From positions 1-26,012 of IMG/VR virus record IMGVR_UViG_3300042887_001843: 26,012 nucleotides of DNA; one strand, 5' to 3'. The notes under the pieces are model-generated. The model made no database searches and was not told the DNA's origin. It worked only from the letters and a program-made list of their open reading frames with translations. The translations under genes and the position numbers were made by a program. Each line of letters begins with the position of its first letter. The stretch's first letter is position 1. The DNA is from a virus. This document shows positions 2,713 to 11,500 of this stretch, one piece after another.

Positions 2713-3477
2713 TTACAAAATTACCTTTGTTACTATTTCGCTATATCCGTGCCAGATGTTCGACTTCTTGCAAAAGCCGTAGGTCATCAGATTCTTTTTG
2801 TATTTCTGGCGCGCTTCCTTTAGATCCTCATTGCCGATAAAATACCAGCCAACTAAATAGGGCGGGTGCTTTTCAACAGCAACAAAAAAGAAACCGTTGC
2901 AGGGCTTTCCTGTGGCCTCTTCAAGACCATCGGAGTAAAATGCGGCCTGCACATCGTATCGGTACTTTTTAACGCTCTGAGCAAAGCCTCTGGGGCTCGC
3001 GTCCTCTGTTGTTTTAAGGTCAATTATAACATTGTCAGCAGTGAGCCAGTCAGGGCGAGCCTTGCAATCAATGTCTGTCTCTTCATCATTCCAGTAAATG
3101 GGTTGCTCAGCAATGCCGTCTTTGAGTAAGTACTGAGCCGTCCGATGACCGCGGACGCTTTCCATTATCCTCTCAACCATTGTAGCGCTTTCGGCATCCA
3201 GTGGGATAAGGCCCTGCGAGTGTTCCAAAAAATTGGCCCAAGTTTCTTTGCCTTCTTTGGTGCGTCTGTCGCAATGAGGGGCAACAGCATAGCGTTTGCC
3301 GAACTCAGCGGGCTCAAACACTGCACAATGAGCAGCGGAGCCAATGATAAGGGCCGGGGTTTCTTTTTGCGGTGAGGCGTTGGGGTTTAAATAGCGCTCA
3401 TAGTACAATGCTGGAGCGCGATTAATTAGGTCTAGGCCGCTCTTTGAGACGCGGCTTGTGTCTGTGTGGTACTGCAT
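2713..3477 (-). CDS. RecE-like PD-(D/E)XK exonuclease
   Basis: A 254-aa nuclease (268 aa if the upstream ATG at 3519 is used). With numbering from 3519, the motifs are GSAAH (60-64), Glu138, RPD (155-157), IIDLKT (166-171; Asp167 and Lys169) and QxxxY in VQAAFYSDG (191-195). Together these form the PD-(D/E)XK core with the RecB-family QxxxY motif seen in exonuclease VIII/lambda-exonuclease-like proteins. Such enzymes resect double-stranded ends 5'-3' to give the strand used by RecT. I prefer ATG 3477 because the conserved part begins at MQYHTDTS, and a TAAATTTG box lies 8 nt before it. It is the first gene of the leftward recombination operon, divergent from the small HTH regulator. Confidence 0.85.
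   Translation of the reverse strand: MQYHTDTSRVSKSGLDLINRAPALYYERYLNPNASPQKETPALIIGSAAHCAVFEPAEFGKRYAVAPHCDRRTKEGKETWANFLEHSQGLIPLDAESATMVERIMESVRGHRTAQYLLKDGIAEQPIYWNDEETDIDCKARPDWLTADNVIIDLKTTEDASPRGFAQSVKKYRYDVQAAFYSDGLEEATGKPCNGFFFVAVEKHPPYLVGWYFIGNEDLKEARQKYKKNLMTYGFCKKSNIWHGYSEIVTKVIL
2716..2723 (-). promoter_or_regulatory. TAATTTTG -7-type box before the 142-aa gene
   Basis: On the minus strand TAATTTTG, a perfect TAnnTTTG, ends 6 nt before ATG 2709. It overlaps the last codons of the exonuclease gene. No TTTG is visible at 19-21 nt upstream. It could let the 142-aa gene and recT be transcribed independently of the exonuclease. Confidence 0.35.
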
Positions 3478-3519
3478 AACATTTGCAAATTTATCGCTTT
3501 TTTTGTAAATTTGTAGCAT
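3478..3519. promoter_or_regulatory. overlapping divergent promoters with inverted repeat
   Basis: Rightward: TTTG (3482-3485), 20 nt spacer, TAAATTTG (3506-3513), then ATG 3520 after 6 nt. Leftward: TAAATTTG on the minus strand (3493-3486), then ATG 3477 after 8 nt. The two -7 boxes form a perfect 8-bp inverted repeat (CAAATTTA / TAAATTTG) separated by 12 bp. The rightward -33 box overlaps the leftward -7 box, so the two promoters should exclude each other. The TTTTTTTGTAAATTT segment at 3498-3512 recurs exactly at 3753-3767. These repeats are candidate operators for the HTH protein. Confidence 0.6.
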
Positions 3520-3696
3520 ATGGAAAAAAATATCGTTACTGATTTAAAAATTAAGGCAATCCAAAAGGGCGTAACCCTCACAAAACTTTGCGCACTTGCA
3601 GGCGTGAATCGGTGCGTCTTAACTCACTGGTCAAGAAAAGAACCGAAGAGCCTAGAAACGTTAAGGAAATTAGAACAAACCTTACAAAATCTTTGA
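3520..3696 (+). CDS. 58-aa helix-turn-helix regulator (Cro/C1-like)
   Basis: A small protein from ATG 3520 to TGA 3694-3696. Residues 7-57 fit a compact Cro/XRE-like helix-turn-helix: helix 1 around TDLKIKAIQKG, then VTLTKLCALAGV as helix 2, NRCVLTHWSRK as the recognition helix, and KSLETLRKLEQTL as the closing helix. At 58 aa it is close to the minimum for such a domain and has no effector or dimerisation extension. It is divergent from the exonuclease gene and separated from the rightward operon by a terminator. This places it as the switch between recombination and replication transcription. Probable operators are the repeats at 3486-3513 and 3753-3767. Which promoter it represses is not shown. 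Confidence 0.75.
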   Translation: MEKNIVTDLKIKAIQKGVTLTKLCALAGVNRCVLTHWSRKEPKSLETLRKLEQTLQNL

Positions 3697-3704
3697 GTAT
3701 ATTT

Positions 3705-3759
3705 GCGCCGTTAGTGTGGTGCTAACTGCCTCGGGTTTCGGCTCGGGGCATTTTTTTTT
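3705..3759 (+). ncRNA. candidate ~50-nt structured small RNA
   Basis: A TATATTTGC box (3698-3706, perfect TAnnTTTG) precedes two abutting hairpins. Hairpin 1 has stem GTTAG (3710-3714)/CTAAC (3722-3726) with loop TGTGGTG. Hairpin 2 is the terminator at 3727-3750 with nine T. The loop and one flank (3715-3724) are perfectly complementary over 10 nt to the leader at 3808-3817, just before ATG 3820. Bases 3712-3723 are complementary over 12 nt to 7899-7910, inside the first codons of the primase-like gene. No -33 box is clear, so the RNA could instead be the 3' end of the HTH transcript. Structure and complementarity are seen; the regulatory role is inferred. Confidence 0.5.
3727..3759 (+). terminator. 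Rho-independent terminator
   Basis: A 9-bp stem (TGCCTCGGG, 3727-3735, with CTCGGGGCA, 3742-3750; two G-T wobbles) and a 6-nt loop, followed directly by nine T. It ends transcription from the HTH gene and the candidate small RNA before the rightward operon promoter. Confidence 0.85.
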
Positions 3760-3768
3760 GTAAATTTA

Positions 3769-3799
3769 TTTGGTTTTGTGGAAAACGCCTTTATATTTG
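3769..3799 (+). promoter_or_regulatory. consensus promoter of the rightward early operon
   Basis: TTTG (3769-3772), exactly 19 nt, TATATTTG (3792-3799): a full match to the Bacteroidota TTTG/TAnnTTTG promoter. Start of transcription is expected near 3804-3808, giving a leader of ~15 nt before ATG 3820 that contains TAGCACCACA (3808-3817). A copy of TTTTTTTGTAAATTT (3753-3767) lies just upstream and could be an operator. Confidence 0.7.
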
Positions 3800-3819
3800 C
3801 ATCCACATAGCACCACATT

Positions 3820-4035
3820 ATGAGTTTAGATATTATTTACCCAATCATTTTAGCGCCTGCTACCATTGCGGTGGCCTATTGCGCTCACGTAATTCGCCGC
3901 AACAAAAAGCGTGCAACTGAAACCCCTGAAGCCGAGCCCTACAAATTTGAGCGCGATGAGTATCGCCCCGAGTTTGATGAGTTCACGCAGATGCTTTATC
4001 AACGCAGAATGTACAGAGGGAGGGGCGACAAATGA
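3820..4035 (+). CDS. 71-aa membrane-anchored protein, first gene of the early operon
   Basis: Not recognised. Residues 3-24 (LDIIYPIILAPATIAVAYCAHV) form a single membrane segment, followed by a basic RRNKKR stop-transfer and a charged soluble tail rich in Glu, Tyr and Arg (YKFERDEYRPEFDEF ... RMYRGRGDK). The predicted topology is N-out, with the ~45-residue tail in the cytoplasm. It is the first gene after the early promoter and is coupled to the next membrane gene by an ATGA overlap. Early phage membrane proteins are often superinfection-exclusion or host-modulation factors, but nothing in the sequence proves that here. Its leader is the candidate target of the small RNA at 3705-3759. Confidence 0.65.
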   Translation: MSLDIIYPIILAPATIAVAYCAHVIRRNKKRATETPEAEPYKFERDEYRPEFDEFTQMLYQRRMYRGRGDK

Positions 4036-4217
4036 GCATCCGCACCACTATGCTTTGCTTTGCGCAGGCTCTGCTGATCACCTATGCAGGCTTTGTATTT
4101 GTATCGGGGCAATTTAACCCGTTGACGTGGCCAGAGAGCGCTCGCTTTTCTTTTGTGCTTTGCGTGGCCGCTTTGTATGTTTTAAACCTTGTAATAAAAA
4201 ACGATAATTCAAAATGA
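4032..4217 (+). CDS. 61-aa two-segment membrane protein
   Basis: Not recognised. It contains hydrophobic segments at about residues 6-26 (TMLCFAQALLITYAGFVFVSG) and 38-56 (FSFVLCVAALYVLNLVI), separated by a short polar loop (QFNPLTWPESAR). The protein ends in KNDNSK. Both termini are probably cytoplasmic. The ATG overlaps the stop of the previous gene, and its own stop overlaps the ATG of the next (both ATGA). The three small membrane genes are therefore translated as a coupled set and probably work together. A holin-like role is possible but less likely here, far from the lysis cassette. Confidence 0.65.
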   Translation: MSIRTTMLCFAQALLITYAGFVFVSGQFNPLTWPESARFSFVLCVAALYVLNLVIKNDNSK

Positions 4218-4582: not shown

Positions 4583-4772
4583 CCTACCAGAACAAACCAT
4601 TAGCCTGCACATTTACAACGCTTGTTTCATGATCACCAACATTGAAGAGCGGGACAAATTGCGGGAATATATCAAACTTGCCGAGCAGTACGAACTTTCC
4701 AGACATTCAATAATAAAGCCAAATGATTACAGACTATTTACAACTATACAGCAGAGCGAGACGCGAGAATAA
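4575..4772 (+). CDS. 65-aa protein of unknown function
   Basis: Not recognised. A small soluble protein with no membrane segment: MIDLPEQTISLHIYN, then a helical charged middle (NIEERDKLREYIKLAEQYEL) and a polar end (YRLFTTIQQSETRE). It begins inside the end of the coiled-coil gene (8-base overlap). Its stop TAA (4770-4772) overlaps an AAGGAG sequence placed 6 nt before ATG 4783 of the DnaA-like gene. Coupling to its neighbours supports it as real; there is no functional clue beyond its place at the head of the replication genes. Confidence 0.6.
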   Translation: MIDLPEQTISLHIYNACFMITNIEERDKLREYIKLAEQYELSRHSIIKPNDYRLFTTIQQSETRE

Positions 4773-4776
4773 GGAG
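4771..4776 (+). promoter_or_regulatory. Shine-Dalgarno-like AAGGAG deciding the DnaA-like start
   Basis: AAGGAG sits 6 nt before ATG 4783 and overlaps the stop of the preceding gene. Strong Shine-Dalgarno sequences are nearly absent elsewhere in the window, so this one favours 4783 over 4723 as the start. Confidence 0.5.
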
Positions 4777-4782
4777 TTACAA

Positions 4783-5166
4783 ATGCGCATCCTACAAATG
4801 ACATCCAAATATGAGGCCGAGGTGGTTCGATTAAAAAACGAACTACTTCGCCCACAGGTAAAATTTACTAGCAAAATGGATGATTTCGCCAAGGTTATGC
4901 AATCCGTTTGCATTGCCTGCGATGTAACCCCTGCGCAGTTGTTAAGCACTTCCAGGGAGGGCGACATTAAGGATGCCAGGCATATGTTGGTTTACATTTT
5001 GAGACAGCACTACGCTTTAAGATATTCAGAGATTGGCAGACGTTTGGGGCGTGATCACTCAACAGCTATTAATAGCTACAACAGAATGCGGGATTTTTTG
5101 GAGTTTGACAGATCAGTGCAGAAGATTTATAAAACAGTCAAGGAGCTGTTGGGCATATGCAACTAA
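4783..5166 (+). CDS. DnaA domain IV-like DNA-binding protein
   Basis: A protein of 127 aa from ATG 4783, or 147 aa from the in-frame ATG 4723. The C-terminal ~85 residues match the DnaA duplex-DNA-binding domain IV: STSREGDIKDARHMLVYILR, then YSEIGRRLGRDHSTAINSYN, containing the RDHSTAI signature that reads DnaA boxes in the major groove. The N-terminal part is a short coiled coil. The AAA+ ATPase domain of DnaA is absent, so it cannot melt DNA by itself. I prefer 4783 because AAGGAG lies 6 nt before it, rare in this window, and the upstream choice overlaps the previous gene by 50 bases. Likely roles are origin recognition for phage replication or competition with host DnaA. Confidence 0.8.
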   Translation: MRILQMTSKYEAEVVRLKNELLRPQVKFTSKMDDFAKVMQSVCIACDVTPAQLLSTSREGDIKDARHMLVYILRQHYALRYSEIGRRLGRDHSTAINSYNRMRDFLEFDRSVQKIYKTVKELLGICN

Positions 5167-6548
5167 GGCCATATCAGTTAACAGCTGTCGATGAGATCCG
5201 CGCGGCGTTTAAAGAGGCTAAGCGGGTTGTGTTGTGTTTGCCCACTGGAGCAGGCAAGACAGTTGTATTTTCTGAGATTGTGCGCAGAGTGTTGGAAAAG
5301 GGGCGCAGGGTGGCGATTGTTACCCACCGCAGGGAGTTGCTCAGCCAAGCGGGCAAATTAAACCGCTGCGATATTTTGATGGTGGAGACACTAAACAACC
5401 AAATAAAGCGGGGGGTGGTAAACTTAAGCAGTTACGATTTGCTTGTAATTGATGAGGCGCACATTGGAAATTTTCGCAAGATTTTGGAGGGGTTCAATGG
5501 CTTTGTGATTGGCGCAACTGCAACGCCAGTAAGTAAGCCACCGATGGCGCAAAGCTATGGCCGACTGATAAACTCGGTAGGGATTGGGGAACTGATCGCG
5601 CAGGGCTATCTGTGCAATCCAATTACCTATGCAATGCACCCAGTGGACACTTCAAAGATCGCCACGAGAATGGGTGAATTTACAGCGCAGGGATTGGATG
5701 ACGCTTTTAACCGCCCGAAAGTTTATGAGGGAGTTGTGAGTGAGTATGTTAAGAGATGGAAAGATAAGAAGGCGATTGTCTTTTGCGTGAACATTGAGGC
5801 CACAATCAATACCGCTGAGGCTTTTGCCAAGGAGTTGGGGGAGGGGCGGGTTTATTGCGTTCACTCAAAACAAAGCGCATACGAAAGAGCCGACCTAATA
5901 GAGGAATTTATGGTTAGTAAATACGGCATCCTCGTTAACTGCGGAATTGCTACCACTGGCTTTGATTGCCCAGATATTGAGGTTGTTGTTGTGAACAGGG
6001 CTACCAAATCCGTAGCGCTATGGCTGCAAATGGTGGGGCGTGGATCGCGTCCGACGGCAAACAAATCGGAGTTCACCATTTTGGACTTTGGCGAGAATGT
6101 GCACCGCTTAGGATTCTGGCAGGAGGCACGCGATTGGGGCAAGGCATTCGCTGGGATCGAGCAAAAGAAAGGGCAAGGCGTGGCACCTGTTAAGGATTGC
6201 CCGTGTTGCGGCGCTGTGCTCTACGCATCCGCTCGCTTCTGTGAGTTCTGCGGTGAGGTATTTGCAAGCGAAAAGAAAGCCGAGCGCGGTAGTTTGGAAT
6301 TGATGGCCTACGAAAAGCTTAACGGGCGCTATCTATTTGAGATTGCCAAAACGCCAGCCGATTTATGGGAACTTAAAAGCCGTAAGAACTACAAGCAGGC
6401 ATTCATTGAGCGGGTGCTGTATTATGCAAACTACACAGAGTTAAAACGCTTCTGGCGGTCAAAGGGTTACACGCAAGGCTATACCAACCGCAGAGAGCGA
6501 GAATTTGCCGAAGGTGGCGCAGTTAAAAATTTTATCGTAAAATTATGA
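5157..6548 (+). CDS. superfamily 2 DEXH-type helicase with zinc ribbon
   Basis: A 463-aa helicase. The motifs in order are: LRPYQ (3-7), Walker A PTGAGKT (29-35), Ia-like VTHRREL (55-61), DEAH (99-102), motif III GATATP (119-124), motif V GIATTGFDCP (263-272) and motif VI QMVGRGSRP (291-299) with an arginine finger. A zinc ribbon follows (Cys348, Cys351, Cys362, Cys365), then a helical C-terminus (~375-463) resembling the tail of phage replicative helicases of this type. It would unwind or remodel DNA using ATP, at the origin or at forks. It overlaps the DnaA-like gene by 10 bases and the next 48-aa gene by ATGA, so recognition, unwinding and regulator are made together. Confidence 0.9.
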   Translation: MQLRPYQLTAVDEIRAAFKEAKRVVLCLPTGAGKTVVFSEIVRRVLEKGRRVAIVTHRRELLSQAGKLNRCDILMVETLNNQIKRGVVNLSSYDLLVIDEAHIGNFRKILEGFNGFVIGATATPVSKPPMAQSYGRLINSVGIGELIAQGYLCNPITYAMHPVDTSKIATRMGEFTAQGLDDAFNRPKVYEGVVSEYVKRWKDKKAIVFCVNIEATINTAEAFAKELGEGRVYCVHSKQSAYERADLIEEFMVSKYGILVNCGIATTGFDCPDIEVVVVNRATKSVALWLQMVGRGSRPTANKSEFTILDFGENVHRLGFWQEARDWGKAFAGIEQKKGQGVAPVKDCPCCGAVLYASARFCEFCGEVFASEKKAERGSLELMAYEKLNGRYLFEIAKTPADLWELKSRKNYKQAFIERVLYYANYTELKRFWRSKGYTQGYTNRREREFAEGGAVKNFIVKL

Positions 6549-7695: not shown

Positions 7696-7868
7696 GCAAA
7701 CCAACACACGCACGGATTGCCCACGTTGAAGTAACAGAAAACGGAATTTTAATTAAGGCAATTCACTTACACGATGATCACGGCGAGTATATTCGCGACG
7801 CTAAACTTAACGGGCAAATACTTTGCACGCTTACTGAGCATCTGCTTAAAATTACAATATGCAAATAA
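7692..7868 (+). CDS. 58-aa His-rich small protein
   Basis: A short ORF from ATG 7692 to TAA 7866-7868. The start overlaps the stop of the 73-aa gene (ATGA), and the end overlaps the primase-like gene by 10 bases. The product is soluble and contains a His/Asp-rich centre (IHLHDDHGEYIRDAKLNG) that could bind a metal, although no known metal site is recognisable. A beta-rich N-terminus (ARIAHVEVTENGILIKAI) precedes it. Not recognised. Because it fills the gap between two coupled genes exactly, it is likely real. Confidence 0.6.
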   Translation: MSKPTHARIAHVEVTENGILIKAIHLHDDHGEYIRDAKLNGQILCTLTEHLLKITICK

Positions 7869-10024
7869 CCTATCTGCCGAACATAAGACAGTCGGCAAAG
7901 CACCACACTATCCAAATCGCTGATTATTTCGCCCTGGTGCGATCTGGTCAGCATTTGGCACTTATTGAAGCGTACAGAAATACCAAGGCGCTGAGTAAGG
8001 ATGAGCAGGCCGAGGCAAAGCAACGGATTCCTGCGGTTACGATATCGGGAACTTTTCGAGATAATGTGAGCAATGCAAACCTCATCCAGCACTCAGGGCT
8101 CATTTGCATCGATTTTGACGCGGTGGAAGATGTGGCTCGGCTAAAGGATGAACTGGCCAAAGATCCCTATACATTTGCGGCTTTGTTATCCGTTTCAGGC
8201 AATGGCTTGGCTGCACTTGTTAAGATTGAGCCAGAGCGCCATTTGGATGCGTTCAATGGGCTCAAACAGTACTATTTTAAAAACTACGGGCAACTGATTG
8301 ATCAGAGTTGCAAGAATGTGAGCCGGTTGCGGTTCCTTTCTTATGATCCTTTGCTGTACGTCAACGAGCAAAGTAAGACGTTTAAGGAGTACCCCAAAAA
8401 AGAAGCCAAGCCAAAGCAAGTGCACACTGTGCTGACCGGCAATGAATTTGATGAATTGATTGATAGGATTTGCAGGGGCGGCTATGATCTAACAGAGGGC
8501 GCTTACAAAAATTATCTCGATATTGGCTTTGCACTGGCTTCTGAGTTTGGAGAGCGAGGCCGTGAGTATTTTCACGCCATCGCCGCCCAAAACAGCAAAT
8601 ACGACCATATCAAGGCCGATAGGCAGTACAATTATTGCCTCAGAGATACAGGGCAGAGCAAAATCGGGATAGGCACTTTTTACTATTACGCTAAGCAGTC
8701 GGGCGTTGAGTTGAAAAGCCAGCAGGCTGTGAAGTTGGAAAACATTGCAAAAATGGCCAAAAAGCAAGGGCGTGCTCAGGAGTCGGTTGTTGAGATTGCG
8801 CGGCTGTCTGGAATGGACGTTGAAAAGGCCACCGAGACCGCCGCCGCAGTATTTGAGGCCAATGTTTCGCTGCAGCTTACGGGTCAGACGCCCGTAGCGC
8901 TATGCCAGTTGTATCTTCAAAACAACCACCAACTGCATTATAACACGATCACGGCAGATATTGAGGATCGCTCAATACTGTTTAACAATCGCCCCAAGAT
9001 TTTGGATGACATGGGCCTAAATACGATGTATCTGCGCTTCAGCGAGTTGACTGATAACAAGATTTCATTTGAATTTTTCTGCAGGGTGATCTATTCGGAA
9101 TTAACACGTTATTACAACCCATTTGAGGACTTTCTGAAAGCGAATGAGTCAGTACAGCGAAGTCAGCAACTAATCGATGAGTTGGCCGCTTGCATAGAAA
9201 CCACCACGCCGCACGTTGCCAAATACTTAACTCACTGGGGCGTTGGAATGATTGCCAGCGTTTACGGCCATACCTCGCCCCTGGTATTGGTATTGGCAGG
9301 GGAGCGCCAAAATACAGGTAAAACTGAGTTTTTTAGGCGCTTGCTTCCCAAGCCACTGGCCAACTATTACGCAGAGTCTAAACTGGACGGCGGTAAGGAT
9401 GATGATATTTTGCTGACCAAAAAGCTCATTATTATGGATGATGAATTTGGGGGTAAATCAAAATTTGAGGCCAAACGATTTAAGGAGTTAACGAGTAAGG
9501 CCAGTTTTTCAATTCGCCTGCCTTATGGGCGCACCCACCGAGATTTGAAGCGATTGGCCGTCTTAGCAGGAACTACTAACGATCTGGGCCTTATCTCAGA
9601 TCCAACAGGCAACCGTCGAATCTTGCCTATTAACGTGCTCGGCATTGATCACCAGCGATACAACGCCATTGACAAAACAGCGCTTTTTATGGCATTCTAC
9701 GACCTCTATCAGGCAGGGTTCAATTGGCACCTTTCGAGTGAGGATATACTACAATTAAACGAAAATAGTAGTGAATTTAATGCAATTAATTTTGAAGCGG
9801 AATTAATAAACCAATTTTTTAGAGTTCCACAAAATGGTGATTATAGCGATTATTTAACAAATACCGAATTGAAAATATATCTCGAGGTAAACAGCCAACA
9901 GCGGATTTTTGACACTCGAAAGTTGGGGATGGAAATGAAAAATTTGGGCTTTCAACAAGTGAAAAGGAAGGTCAATGGATCAACAATGCGCTGCTATGCG
10001 GTTGTAAAAATAGCCAGACAATGA
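7859..10024 (+). CDS. primase/helicase-like replication protein (BT4734-like N domain, PriCT, VirE-type P-loop)
   Basis: A 721-aa multidomain protein. Residues ~40-175 fit the BT4734/BF3469-like N domain (SGLICIDFDAVEDV, LSVSGNGLAALVKI), an archaeo-eukaryotic primase-like fold. Residues ~195-285 resemble a PriCT-type linker (YDLTEGAYKNYLDIGFALAS). Residues ~455-620 are a VirE/superfamily 3-like ATPase: Walker A GERQNTGKT (481-489, Lys488), Walker B KLIIMDDEFGG (Asp527, Asp528, Glu529) and an arginine-containing LAGTTNDLGLISDPTGNRRI segment. The C-terminus looks like a winged-helix module. It is expected to prime and unwind at the phage origin. It ends directly before the repeat cluster at 10037-10278, a plausible binding target. 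Codons 14-18 carry the 12-nt match to the candidate small RNA. Confidence 0.88.
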   Translation: MQITYLPNIRQSAKHHTIQIADYFALVRSGQHLALIEAYRNTKALSKDEQAEAKQRIPAVTISGTFRDNVSNANLIQHSGLICIDFDAVEDVARLKDELAKDPYTFAALLSVSGNGLAALVKIEPERHLDAFNGLKQYYFKNYGQLIDQSCKNVSRLRFLSYDPLLYVNEQSKTFKEYPKKEAKPKQVHTVLTGNEFDELIDRICRGGYDLTEGAYKNYLDIGFALASEFGERGREYFHAIAAQNSKYDHIKADRQYNYCLRDTGQSKIGIGTFYYYAKQSGVELKSQQAVKLENIAKMAKKQGRAQESVVEIARLSGMDVEKATETAAAVFEANVSLQLTGQTPVALCQLYLQNNHQLHYNTITADIEDRSILFNNRPKILDDMGLNTMYLRFSELTDNKISFEFFCRVIYSELTRYYNPFEDFLKANESVQRSQQLIDELAACIETTTPHVAKYLTHWGVGMIASVYGHTSPLVLVLAGERQNTGKTEFFRRLLPKPLANYYAESKLDGGKDDDILLTKKLIIMDDEFGGKSKFEAKRFKELTSKASFSIRLPYGRTHRDLKRLAVLAGTTNDLGLISDPTGNRRILPINVLGIDHQRYNAIDKTALFMAFYDLYQAGFNWHLSSEDILQLNENSSEFNAINFEAELINQFFRVPQNGDYSDYLTNTELKIYLEVNSQQRIFDTRKLGMEMKNLGFQQVKRKVNGSTMRCYAVVKIARQ

Positions 10025-10036
10025 AAAACGGATTTT

Positions 10037-10278
10037 CTCTGACCACCTCTGAGCCCAATGTTTATAAGGGTTTGACCAAAAGGTGGTCAGAGAGGCAAGT
10101 AAAAAACATAACTTCCCTAGAAAATTATTTTTTCAATTTCCATTTTTTTTATTTTGTAGTTCTGGAAAAGTCTTTGACTTTCTCTGACCACCTGACCACC
10201 TTTTGCCTTGCGCCCAATGATAGCGCGCCTTAAGAGGTGGTCAGAGAGCTTTTTTTCTCTGACCACCCTCTGACCACC
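10037..10278 (+). repeat. cluster of CTGACCACC repeats: candidate origin iterons/operators
   Basis: This 280-bp stretch without a convincing gene holds seven copies of the element. Plus-strand copies of CTCTGACCACC are at 10037, 10182, 10257 and 10268, with a partial CTGACCACC at 10192. Minus-strand copies (GGTGGTCAGAG) are at 10082-10092 and 10236-10246. Tandem copies are 10-11 bp apart, one helical turn. Copies at 10236-10247 and 10256-10267 form a 12-bp perfect inverted repeat with an 8-nt loop; TGACCA (10073-10078)/TGGTCA (10084-10089) forms a second. An A/T-rich tract (10099-10160) lies between copies. Position after the replication protein and before the packaging genes suggests replication iterons, or operators for the late promoter. 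Confidence 0.8.
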
Positions 10279-10289
10279 GTACAAATTGC

Positions 10290-10297
10290 TAACTTTG
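10290..10297 (+). promoter_or_regulatory. TAACTTTG -7 box at head of late genes
   Basis: TAACTTTG ends 7 nt before ATG 10305, so the transcript would be nearly leaderless. No TTTG is found at the usual -33 distance; that position is taken by the last GACCACC repeat (10268-10278). A factor bound to the repeats could therefore activate or block this promoter. Confidence 0.5.
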
Positions 10298-10304
10298 CTA
10301 ATAT

Positions 10305-10640
10305 ATGACTGAGGATAAAATACAGCAGGAAATTATAATGTATTATAAAAACTATTTCCAAATAAAATATAAGAGTTGTTTAATCTTTAGCATCCCTAAC
10401 GGGGGGCTAAGAGATATGCGCACGGCAATGCTCATGAAGGCCACAGGATTAACACCAGGGGCGAGTGATCTGATTGTGATTTACTTTGGTAAGTTGCTAT
10501 TCGTTGAAGTCAAGACATCAACAGGCACGCAGTCAGAAGAGCAGAAGGTATTTGCTCAGCGTGTTAGAGACTGTGGTTTTGATTATCATTTGGTGCGCTC
10601 ATTGCTGGACTTTAAACTACTACTGACATGCCAACAATAA
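10305..10640 (+). CDS. VRR-NUC nuclease
   Basis: A 111-aa single-domain nuclease of the VRR-NUC branch of the PD-(D/E)XK superfamily. The order is typical: QQEIIMYYKNYF (helix 1), FSIPNGGLRD, LMKATGLTPGASDLIV with the active-site Asp, then LLFVEVKTSTGTQSEEQKVF with the Glu-x-Lys pair and a Gln-rich helix. Stand-alone phage VRR-NUC proteins are thought to cut branched or flapped DNA; here it may process replication intermediates before packaging. It opens the late module right after the repeat cluster and overlaps the HNH gene by 13 bases. Confidence 0.88.
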   Translation: MTEDKIQQEIIMYYKNYFQIKYKSCLIFSIPNGGLRDMRTAMLMKATGLTPGASDLIVIYFGKLLFVEVKTSTGTQSEEQKVFAQRVRDCGFDYHLVRSLLDFKLLLTCQQ

Positions 10641-11029: not shown

Positions 11030-11500
11030 ATGAAAGGGAGACCACGCAAACCCGTTGATTTAAAAAAAATCGAGGGGACTTTTCGCGCCGACCGAAGTCT
11101 TGAGCAGCCGATGATTGTCGAGCTGAGCGTTGGAGTCCCACAACCACCCGCTCACCTAAATGAATTGGGCTTTGAGTACTGGGATATCACTTGCAAGGAG
11201 TTGAAAAATAATAACCTACTGGCTGGCGCTGATCTCGGTTTAGTTGCCGGGTACTGCAACGAATTGGGTTTGTATAAAAAAGCCTGCGAGATAAACAACA
11301 AAGAGGGCGAGGTTGTTGTTAACAGATTTGGCGAGCGTGTTGTTTCGCCGTGGTACGATGTGCGCAGCAAAGCATTGAAGCAAGCCACGCAGATGGGGCA
11401 GTTGTTTGGAATCACACCAAGCGCCAGGGCAAGGATTGAAACTGGAAACGTTAAGCCAGCGAGTAAATTAGAATTATTGAAAAAACCTAAAACCGCATAA
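11030..11500 (+). CDS. terS: small terminase subunit, P27 family
   Basis: A 156-aa protein. It starts KGRPRKPVDLKKIEGTFR, the basic leader common to P27-type small terminases, followed by PQPPAHLNELGFEYWDITCK. The helical core contains DLGLVAGYCNELGLYKKACE and SPWYDVRSKALKQATQMGQL, and the C-terminus reads FGITPSARARIETG, all typical of this family. The small subunit binds the packaging site on phage DNA and hands it to the large subunit. It begins the packaging module under its own promoter. An 83-aa gene separates it from terL, which is not the usual direct adjacency. Confidence 0.9.
   Translation: MKGRPRKPVDLKKIEGTFRADRSLEQPMIVELSVGVPQPPAHLNELGFEYWDITCKELKNNNLLAGADLGLVAGYCNELGLYKKACEINNKEGEVVVNRFGERVVSPWYDVRSKALKQATQMGQLFGITPSARARIETGNVKPASKLELLKKPKTA

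Follow-up and report, generated by a model that had tools for sequence, protein, structure and literature searches.

The α protein of phage P4 is a primase-helicase with a C-terminal origin-binding domain. A similar arrangement is described for the staphylococcal pathogenicity islands (SaPIs), whose Rep protein uses its C-terminal domain to recognise an iteron origin immediately 3' of the gene that encodes it, and for SCCmec, in which the repeats downstream of Cch2 are bound by the C-terminal domain of that protein (both according to the accessible text of PMC7581432). For plasmid pRN1, the excerpted text of PMC4234260 reports that a stem-loop 3' of the gene for the primase-helicase ORF904 is needed. 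Here we analysed a locus of this general kind in a virus record of 26,012 nucleotides (the window), in which a cluster of short repeats follows the gene of a 721-aa primase-helicase. We conclude that the cluster is very probably a SaPI/P4-like iteron origin of a Bacteroidota phage, placed immediately 3' of the gene of its own initiator and read by that protein. The preliminary description of this DNA had proposed a candidate iteron origin, which is still the best reading of the sequence and is now backed by the comparison with relatives. We found no published description of this origin, in a search that was thin on the subscription literature.

The cluster consists of seven exact copies of CTGACCACC in both orientations, between positions 10039 and 10278, and an exact search of the 26,012 bases found no further copy; the preliminary description had likewise counted seven copies and seen none in the other regions it read. 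Iterons 1 (10039-10047), 3 (10184-10192), 4 (10192-10200), 6 (10259-10267) and 7 (10270-10278) lie on the plus strand, and iterons 2 (10082-10090) and 5 (10236-10244) are inverted. With one mismatch allowed the window holds 11 matches against 2.6 expected, a count that none of 100 shuffles reached, and this is also the only place in the window where any 8-mer occurs at least four times per 300-bp stretch. The first iteron begins 15 bp past the stop codon of the 721-aa gene, confirming the reported position right behind the primase-helicase, and the last ends 26 bp short of the next gene downstream, which encodes a VRR-NUC protein (10305-10640, plus strand, PF08774). Two copies on the left and five on the right are parted by an AT-rich tract (10094-10180, 75% AT), a candidate unwinding element whose A/T richness had likewise been noted correctly, the AT content being 82% at 10100-10160 against a window mean of 54%. 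A 12-bp hairpin, described before as perfect, is indeed 100% complementary in its arms (10236-10247 and 10256-10267, with an 8-nt loop), and it is made by two opposed copies of the repeat, iterons 5 and 6. Since the tandem spacings, start to start, are 8 bp (10184/10192) and 11 bp (10259/10270), only one tandem pair is near a helical turn; the helical phasing claimed earlier for the tandem pairs thus holds for the 11-bp pair but not for the 8-bp pair. The GC-skew check proposed at that stage gave no support, as there is no switch at the cluster in this fragment: from about 3 kb onwards the skew stays positive up to the right end, apart from one slightly negative interval, and the cluster is only a local GC minimum.

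The gene upstream of the cluster (7859-10024, plus strand) encodes the predicted initiator, with matches to PF08800, PF08707 and PF05272 and to PHROG 15962, which names it a DNA primase. Its domains are a BT4734-like N-terminal primase, PriCT-2, a VapE-like AAA+ helicase and a C-terminal winged helix. An AlphaFold model of the protein (mean pLDDT 82) has as its best PDB match 7pds, the SaPI PriRep1 with dsDNA (Foldseek E 2.4e-13; VIA Z 22.9, rmsd 3.8, 301 residues), and this entry, described as 'similar to D. nodosus vapE', is also the sole PDB match of the protein by sequence. In the whole-protein and domain models roughly the last 75 residues form the winged helix (aa 645-717, codons 9791-10009, plus strand), with helices at 645-653, 668-679 and 686-695 and strands at 700-705 and 708-717. 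The best structural matches of the C-terminal model are RFX5 (Z 8.1) and RFX1 (Z 7.0), and the P4 origin-binding domain 1ka8 gives Z 6.0, values of the size, near 6 to 8, that winged helices commonly give; Foldseek with this domain alone returned weak matches (best E 0.073).

Relatives of the 721-aa protein are mostly from Bacteroidota, including Cellulophaga, Nonlabens and Flavobacterium phages, and the genomes that carry them include Pontibacter, Chitinophaga, Flavobacterium and others. The window has small and large terminase genes, and its long downstream frames read like head and tail genes, judged from the reading frames only, so it looks like an ordinary tailed phage and not a helper-dependent pathogenicity island. 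The window also encodes a DUF3799 PD-(D/E)XK nuclease (2713-3519, minus strand), perhaps a recombination exonuclease, and further on a 198-aa protein with no Pfam match.

In the mechanism that we propose, the 721-aa primase-helicase would bind the CTGACCACC copies through its C-terminal winged helix, the wing reading those bases that vary between lineages. The two iteron groups on either side of the AT-rich tract would load the helicase, the tract would melt and be unwound by the helicase, and the primase domain would then start synthesis.

The repeats and their place recur in relatives. The collection began with 52 relatives with the protein, to which we added 46 from genomes and 80 among the matches listed in a second viral scan, a list that overlaps the first in part. 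Removing 34 duplicates, 31 loci with a profile score below 450 (from Bacteroides, Prevotella, cyanobacteria and kin, which stand outside all counts), two with a short downstream region and one without a stop left 105 distinct relatives. In 82 of these the 500 bp 3' of the gene hold four or more copies of some 8-mer. Controls gave 0.2/105 with dinucleotide shuffles, 2/92 in the 500 bp upstream, 0/100 inside the gene and 1/89 at 1000-1500 bp downstream, and after clustering at 85% identity 37 of 50 clusters carry such repeats. The remaining 23 of the 105 relatives have no clear 8-mer cluster 3' of the gene. Displaced clusters were seen in L030 (~8101-8700), L046 (~1501-2050), L066 (~3451-4050) and L067 (~2851-3450), where they sit either before the gene or about 1 kb beyond it, as if the gene had been inserted or the origin had moved; no repeat cluster was found in L047 or L068, nor, in the stretches around the primase gene, in the isolated phages P12024S and phi46:1.

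The sequence of the repeat varies from lineage to lineage, for example TGTAACAGG in L013-L015, TGTAGAAAG in L020-L022, TGGACCACT in L167, TGTGCCAAC in L049 and TGAGACCA in L052, and among isolated phages AGGTAACC (six copies) in snusmum6-1, GGTTACAC (eight) in FPSV-S1 and TGGAACA (seven) in pippi8-1. When 2.9 million viral contigs were scanned for CTCTGNNCACCTGNNCACC, 61 proved to carry it. Of these, 48 have one to three copies; the other 13 have a cluster of four or more, and in every one of the 13 a relative of the 721-aa primase ends about 160 bp before the site. Scans for CTGTACACC recovered L010 and L016 (as L248 and L247), together with five other contigs holding 1-3 exact copies. The spacing recurs as well: the largest gap between arrays is 83-105 bp, a range picked after the data were seen, in 27 of 42 representatives (median of all, 93), where random placement gives a mean of 24% and a maximum of 40% over 200 runs, and across loci this gap is AT-rich (mean 72% against a region mean of 64%).

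Three individual arrangements deserve mention. In L180 (mymlan6-1, 4619-5525) a nuclease gene lies between the primase gene and VRR-NUC with repeats on both sides of it, whereas the same place in the sister phage snusmum6-1 holds the origin alone, so that the origin of L180 looks invaded by a homing nuclease. In L001 (7160-7660) the contig folds back after four iterons and continues with the primase gene in reverse complement, probably an assembly artefact. In L091 and L093, distant Bacteroidaceae relatives, the same repeat, CTCTACAC or TCTCTACA, flanks the gene on both sides.

Close relatives with different repeats show which part of the protein changes with them. The proteins of L010 and L016 are about 97% identical to that of the window, and in these two loci TGTACACC replaces TGACCACC at all seven slots, a change of the same two bases in every copy, with the spacing unchanged and the leading C kept in six of the seven. 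To compare such cases at equal divergence, we used pairs matched by how similar they are in aa 1-640 (median identity 0.964 and 0.963). Among them the wing (696-718) was unchanged in 78 of 126 same-repeat pairs but in none of 48 different-repeat pairs, the latter amounting to roughly five independent contrasts since pairs are not independent of one another; the recognition helix (686-695), by comparison, was unchanged in 126/126 and 46/48, respectively. The best 26-residue segment in these pairs was 686-711 (AUC 0.925), against 0.641 for the best segment outside the C-terminal domain. The same or different label was automatic, by shared most frequent 7-mers, and the rows it affects oddly were kept: L017 and L024 count as 'same' because both hold GGTTACA, and L042 counts as 'different' from L036, L039, L040 and L045 though all of them hold ACACTGACTAC twice. 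These pairs, a partial Mantel scan and a codon comparison point to the wing (aa 699-717, codons 9953-10009, plus strand) as the segment that tracks the repeat.

The matched-pair test is the clean one here, rather than the all-locus segment scan, and the all-locus scan and the trees favour the wing only slightly. Over 75 loci segment 691-710 reaches 0.327 and segment 341-360 reaches 0.314, and in one scan segment 331-350 also correlates (0.41 against 0.54 for 691-710). All repeat classes need 8 changes on the tree of aa 1-640 and 7 on the winged-helix tree, and on the former the CTGTACACC class needs two, a count forced by the starred branch that joins L008 and L010, so the tree test alone is weak.

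At the level of single residues (window numbering throughout), just two C-terminal substitutions, K702R and one of residue 719 to Asn, separate both L010 and L016 from all of the five CTGACCACC proteins compared (those of the window, L002, L009, L011 and L028). A second series is suggestive: TGGACC, TGGACT and TGGACA within the repeats of L167, L170 and L165 pair with Arg, Ala and Thr, respectively, at the position of Arg711 of the window, in an alignment made by eye and in wings that differ at other residues too.

Since the wing codons adjoin the repeats, linkage could mimic recognition, and it explains part of the tracking. Exchange of the two in one block is indeed observed. Over the last 100 nt of the gene and the whole of the origin the identity of L010 and L016 is 94-100%, against 73-96% before this block and 79% just after it, and in L020 and L023 the origins are 51-65% alike while the gene is 82-96% and the next gene, at its start, 93% alike. 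It might therefore be argued that wing and repeats co-vary only as neighbours that recombine together in such a block, and that the protein does not read the repeats. We regard this as unlikely, for three reasons. The VRR-NUC gene adjoins the origin from the opposite side, yet it fails to vary with the repeat: it is 98% identical in L010, with a different repeat, and 75% in L011, with the same one, and its start in L010 resembles the window while that in L016 resembles L009. The seven copies of each locus change together, which calls for a common reader. And the wing is kept in same-repeat pairs despite synonymous changes, as in L020 and L025, whose last 32 codons differ by one amino-acid and five synonymous changes where the first 420 differ by 90 amino-acid changes.

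Recognition of the repeats by the 721-aa protein thus stays our preferred reading, and a further proposal may be built on it: wing codons and origin would form an exchangeable specificity cassette, spreading by recombination among near-identical phages, in which lock and key shift in few steps. This we put forward tentatively, as a possibility somewhat short of an even chance. If it is true, switching may prevent relatives or satellites that infect the same cell from exploiting one another's origins, or may help phages to evade a defence or satellite protein that targets the origin.

A different function for the repeats is suggested by what follows them. The box TAnnTTTG at 10290-10297 (plus strand), a candidate -7 element of the VRR-NUC gene, is invariant in seven of seven aligned sequences (the window and six close relatives). 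TAnnTTTG is the Bacteroidota -7 consensus. A promoter read from this box would have the last repeats at its -33 position, so the earlier placement of the last copy at -33 fits as far as the repeats are concerned, the promoter itself being putative. On these grounds the repeats could be operators through which the primase-helicase or another protein regulates the VRR-NUC/packaging operon, with replication starting elsewhere. That seems quite improbable to us, as L036, L037 and L043 keep the repeats 3' of the primase gene although their next gene is a helicase and not VRR-NUC, as VRR-NUC is not tracked by the repeat, and as two arrays round an AT-rich gap look like an origin. The persistence of the repeats in these three loci, with no VRR-NUC gene next to them, also leaves the coupling of replication to late transcription, raised in the preliminary description, speculative.

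The hairpin could instead be the origin and the repeats incidental, by analogy with the stem-loop that pRN1 requires 3' of its primase-helicase gene (according to the excerpted text of PMC4234260), and the perfect 12-bp hairpin at 10236-10267 would suit such a role. This is very unlikely: a search for perfect hairpins (at least 10 bp, loop up to 15) found them in only 43 of the 90 loci with a repeat, so that, as far as perfect hairpins go, there is no conserved stem-loop of the pRN1 type, and the hairpin of the window is simply two opposed iterons.

Least of all do we expect the reader to be another DNA-binding protein of the phage, such as the DnaA domain IV-like protein (4723-5166), the 58-aa HTH-like protein (3520-3696) or the small terminase acting at a packaging site. 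DnaA-like, HTH-like and terminase proteins are all encoded nearby, and the first has a PF08299 match, but for the first two the identities run against the repeat class: the DnaA-like protein is 97% identical in L048, with a different repeat, and 78% in L011 and L028, with the same repeat, and the 58-aa protein is 91% identical in L010 (different repeat) and 69% in L011 (same). A 73-aa protein likewise fails to follow the repeat, and we rejected the DnaA-like, 58-aa and 73-aa proteins and VRR-NUC as readers on this ground, so of the binders proposed earlier the 721-aa protein stands and the DnaA-like and small HTH proteins do not. The DnaA-like protein (plus strand, 147 aa; Bac_DnaA_C, E 7e-16; no AAA+ domain match) is a side finding in its own right, an orphan DnaA-like DNA-binding domain encoded alongside the phage's own initiator. 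Near the cluster there is no DnaA box like TTATCCACA, and one weak match lies at 11269.

CRISPR arrays have direct repeats of about 23-50 bp with regular spacers, and the 9-bp repeats found here, in both orientations and irregularly spaced, are no CRISPR, as the preliminary description had judged; a transcription terminator can also be dismissed, since the T run is located in the loop rather than behind the stem, and since such a hairpin is missing from many loci.

If the preferred reading, an iteron origin recognised by the primase-helicase encoded next to it, is correct, there are dozens of phage lineages with an initiator-iteron pair of their own. Several of these pairs are few substitutions apart, so that a small swap experiment would give access to the specificity of self-loading primase-helicases, for which SaPI and P4 are the main known examples. 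The repeats would also be a simple marker for unannotated origins in Bacteroidota phages and prophages.

How, then, does this locus compare with the known systems? Wing recognition has precedents in proteins unrelated to the 721-aa protein: in the accessible parts of the sources, the wing of RFX1 enters the major groove (PMC4333399, PMC6137059) and TcpK binds tandem 9-nt oriT repeats through its wing (PMC6137059). Here too the wing and not the recognition helix changes with the repeat, and the wing had been identified as the varying part before the result of the structural search was at hand; its variation agrees with the way RFX1 and TcpK read DNA, and by analogy the wing of the 721-aa protein may also enter the major groove.

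With pRN1 ORF904 and phage BIP-1, as the excerpted text of PMC4234260 presents them, the locus shares a primase, a helicase, a winged helix and an origin element 3' of the gene. In pRN1, however, a stem-loop of about 100 nt is required, whereas the constant feature here is the repeats, and the repeats found in BIP-1 were judged not to be the origin.

The likeness to P4 extends to its annotated crr, whose type 1 repeats lie directly 3' of the α gene and mostly read TGTTCACC, often after C. P4 iterons (CTGTTCACC) compare with CTGACCACC in the window and CTGTACACC in L010 and L016; 7 of 9 positions are equal, and P4 has the frame CTG-NN-CACC in common with the window (AC) and L010 (TA), a resemblance that holds for the lineage of the window only, other lineages being different. 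Since P4 α is not matched by the family profile, even with E values up to 100 allowed, the resemblance may reflect convergence or deep kinship. P4 differs in having both crr and a distant ori, where one site is seen here; no second repeat cluster was found in the 26-kb window, and the record may be a fragment.

Among the closest known systems are also SaPI Rep/PriRep1 and Cch2, which are likewise primase-helicase or helicase initiators with a C-terminal DNA-binding domain (predicted in our case) and iterons directly 3'. As in the SaPI-type replicon, the initiator is VapE/D5-like AAA+ with a primase (PF05272, PF08800 and PF08707) and has the same helicase fold. The differences are that it belongs to a Bacteroidota phage and not to a Staphylococcus island, that its primase domain is of the BT4734 type and its iterons have other sequences, and that iteron specificity varies between near-identical genomes. 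The kind of origin is an ordinary one; what is unusual is the diversification and block exchange of its specificity among near-identical phages.
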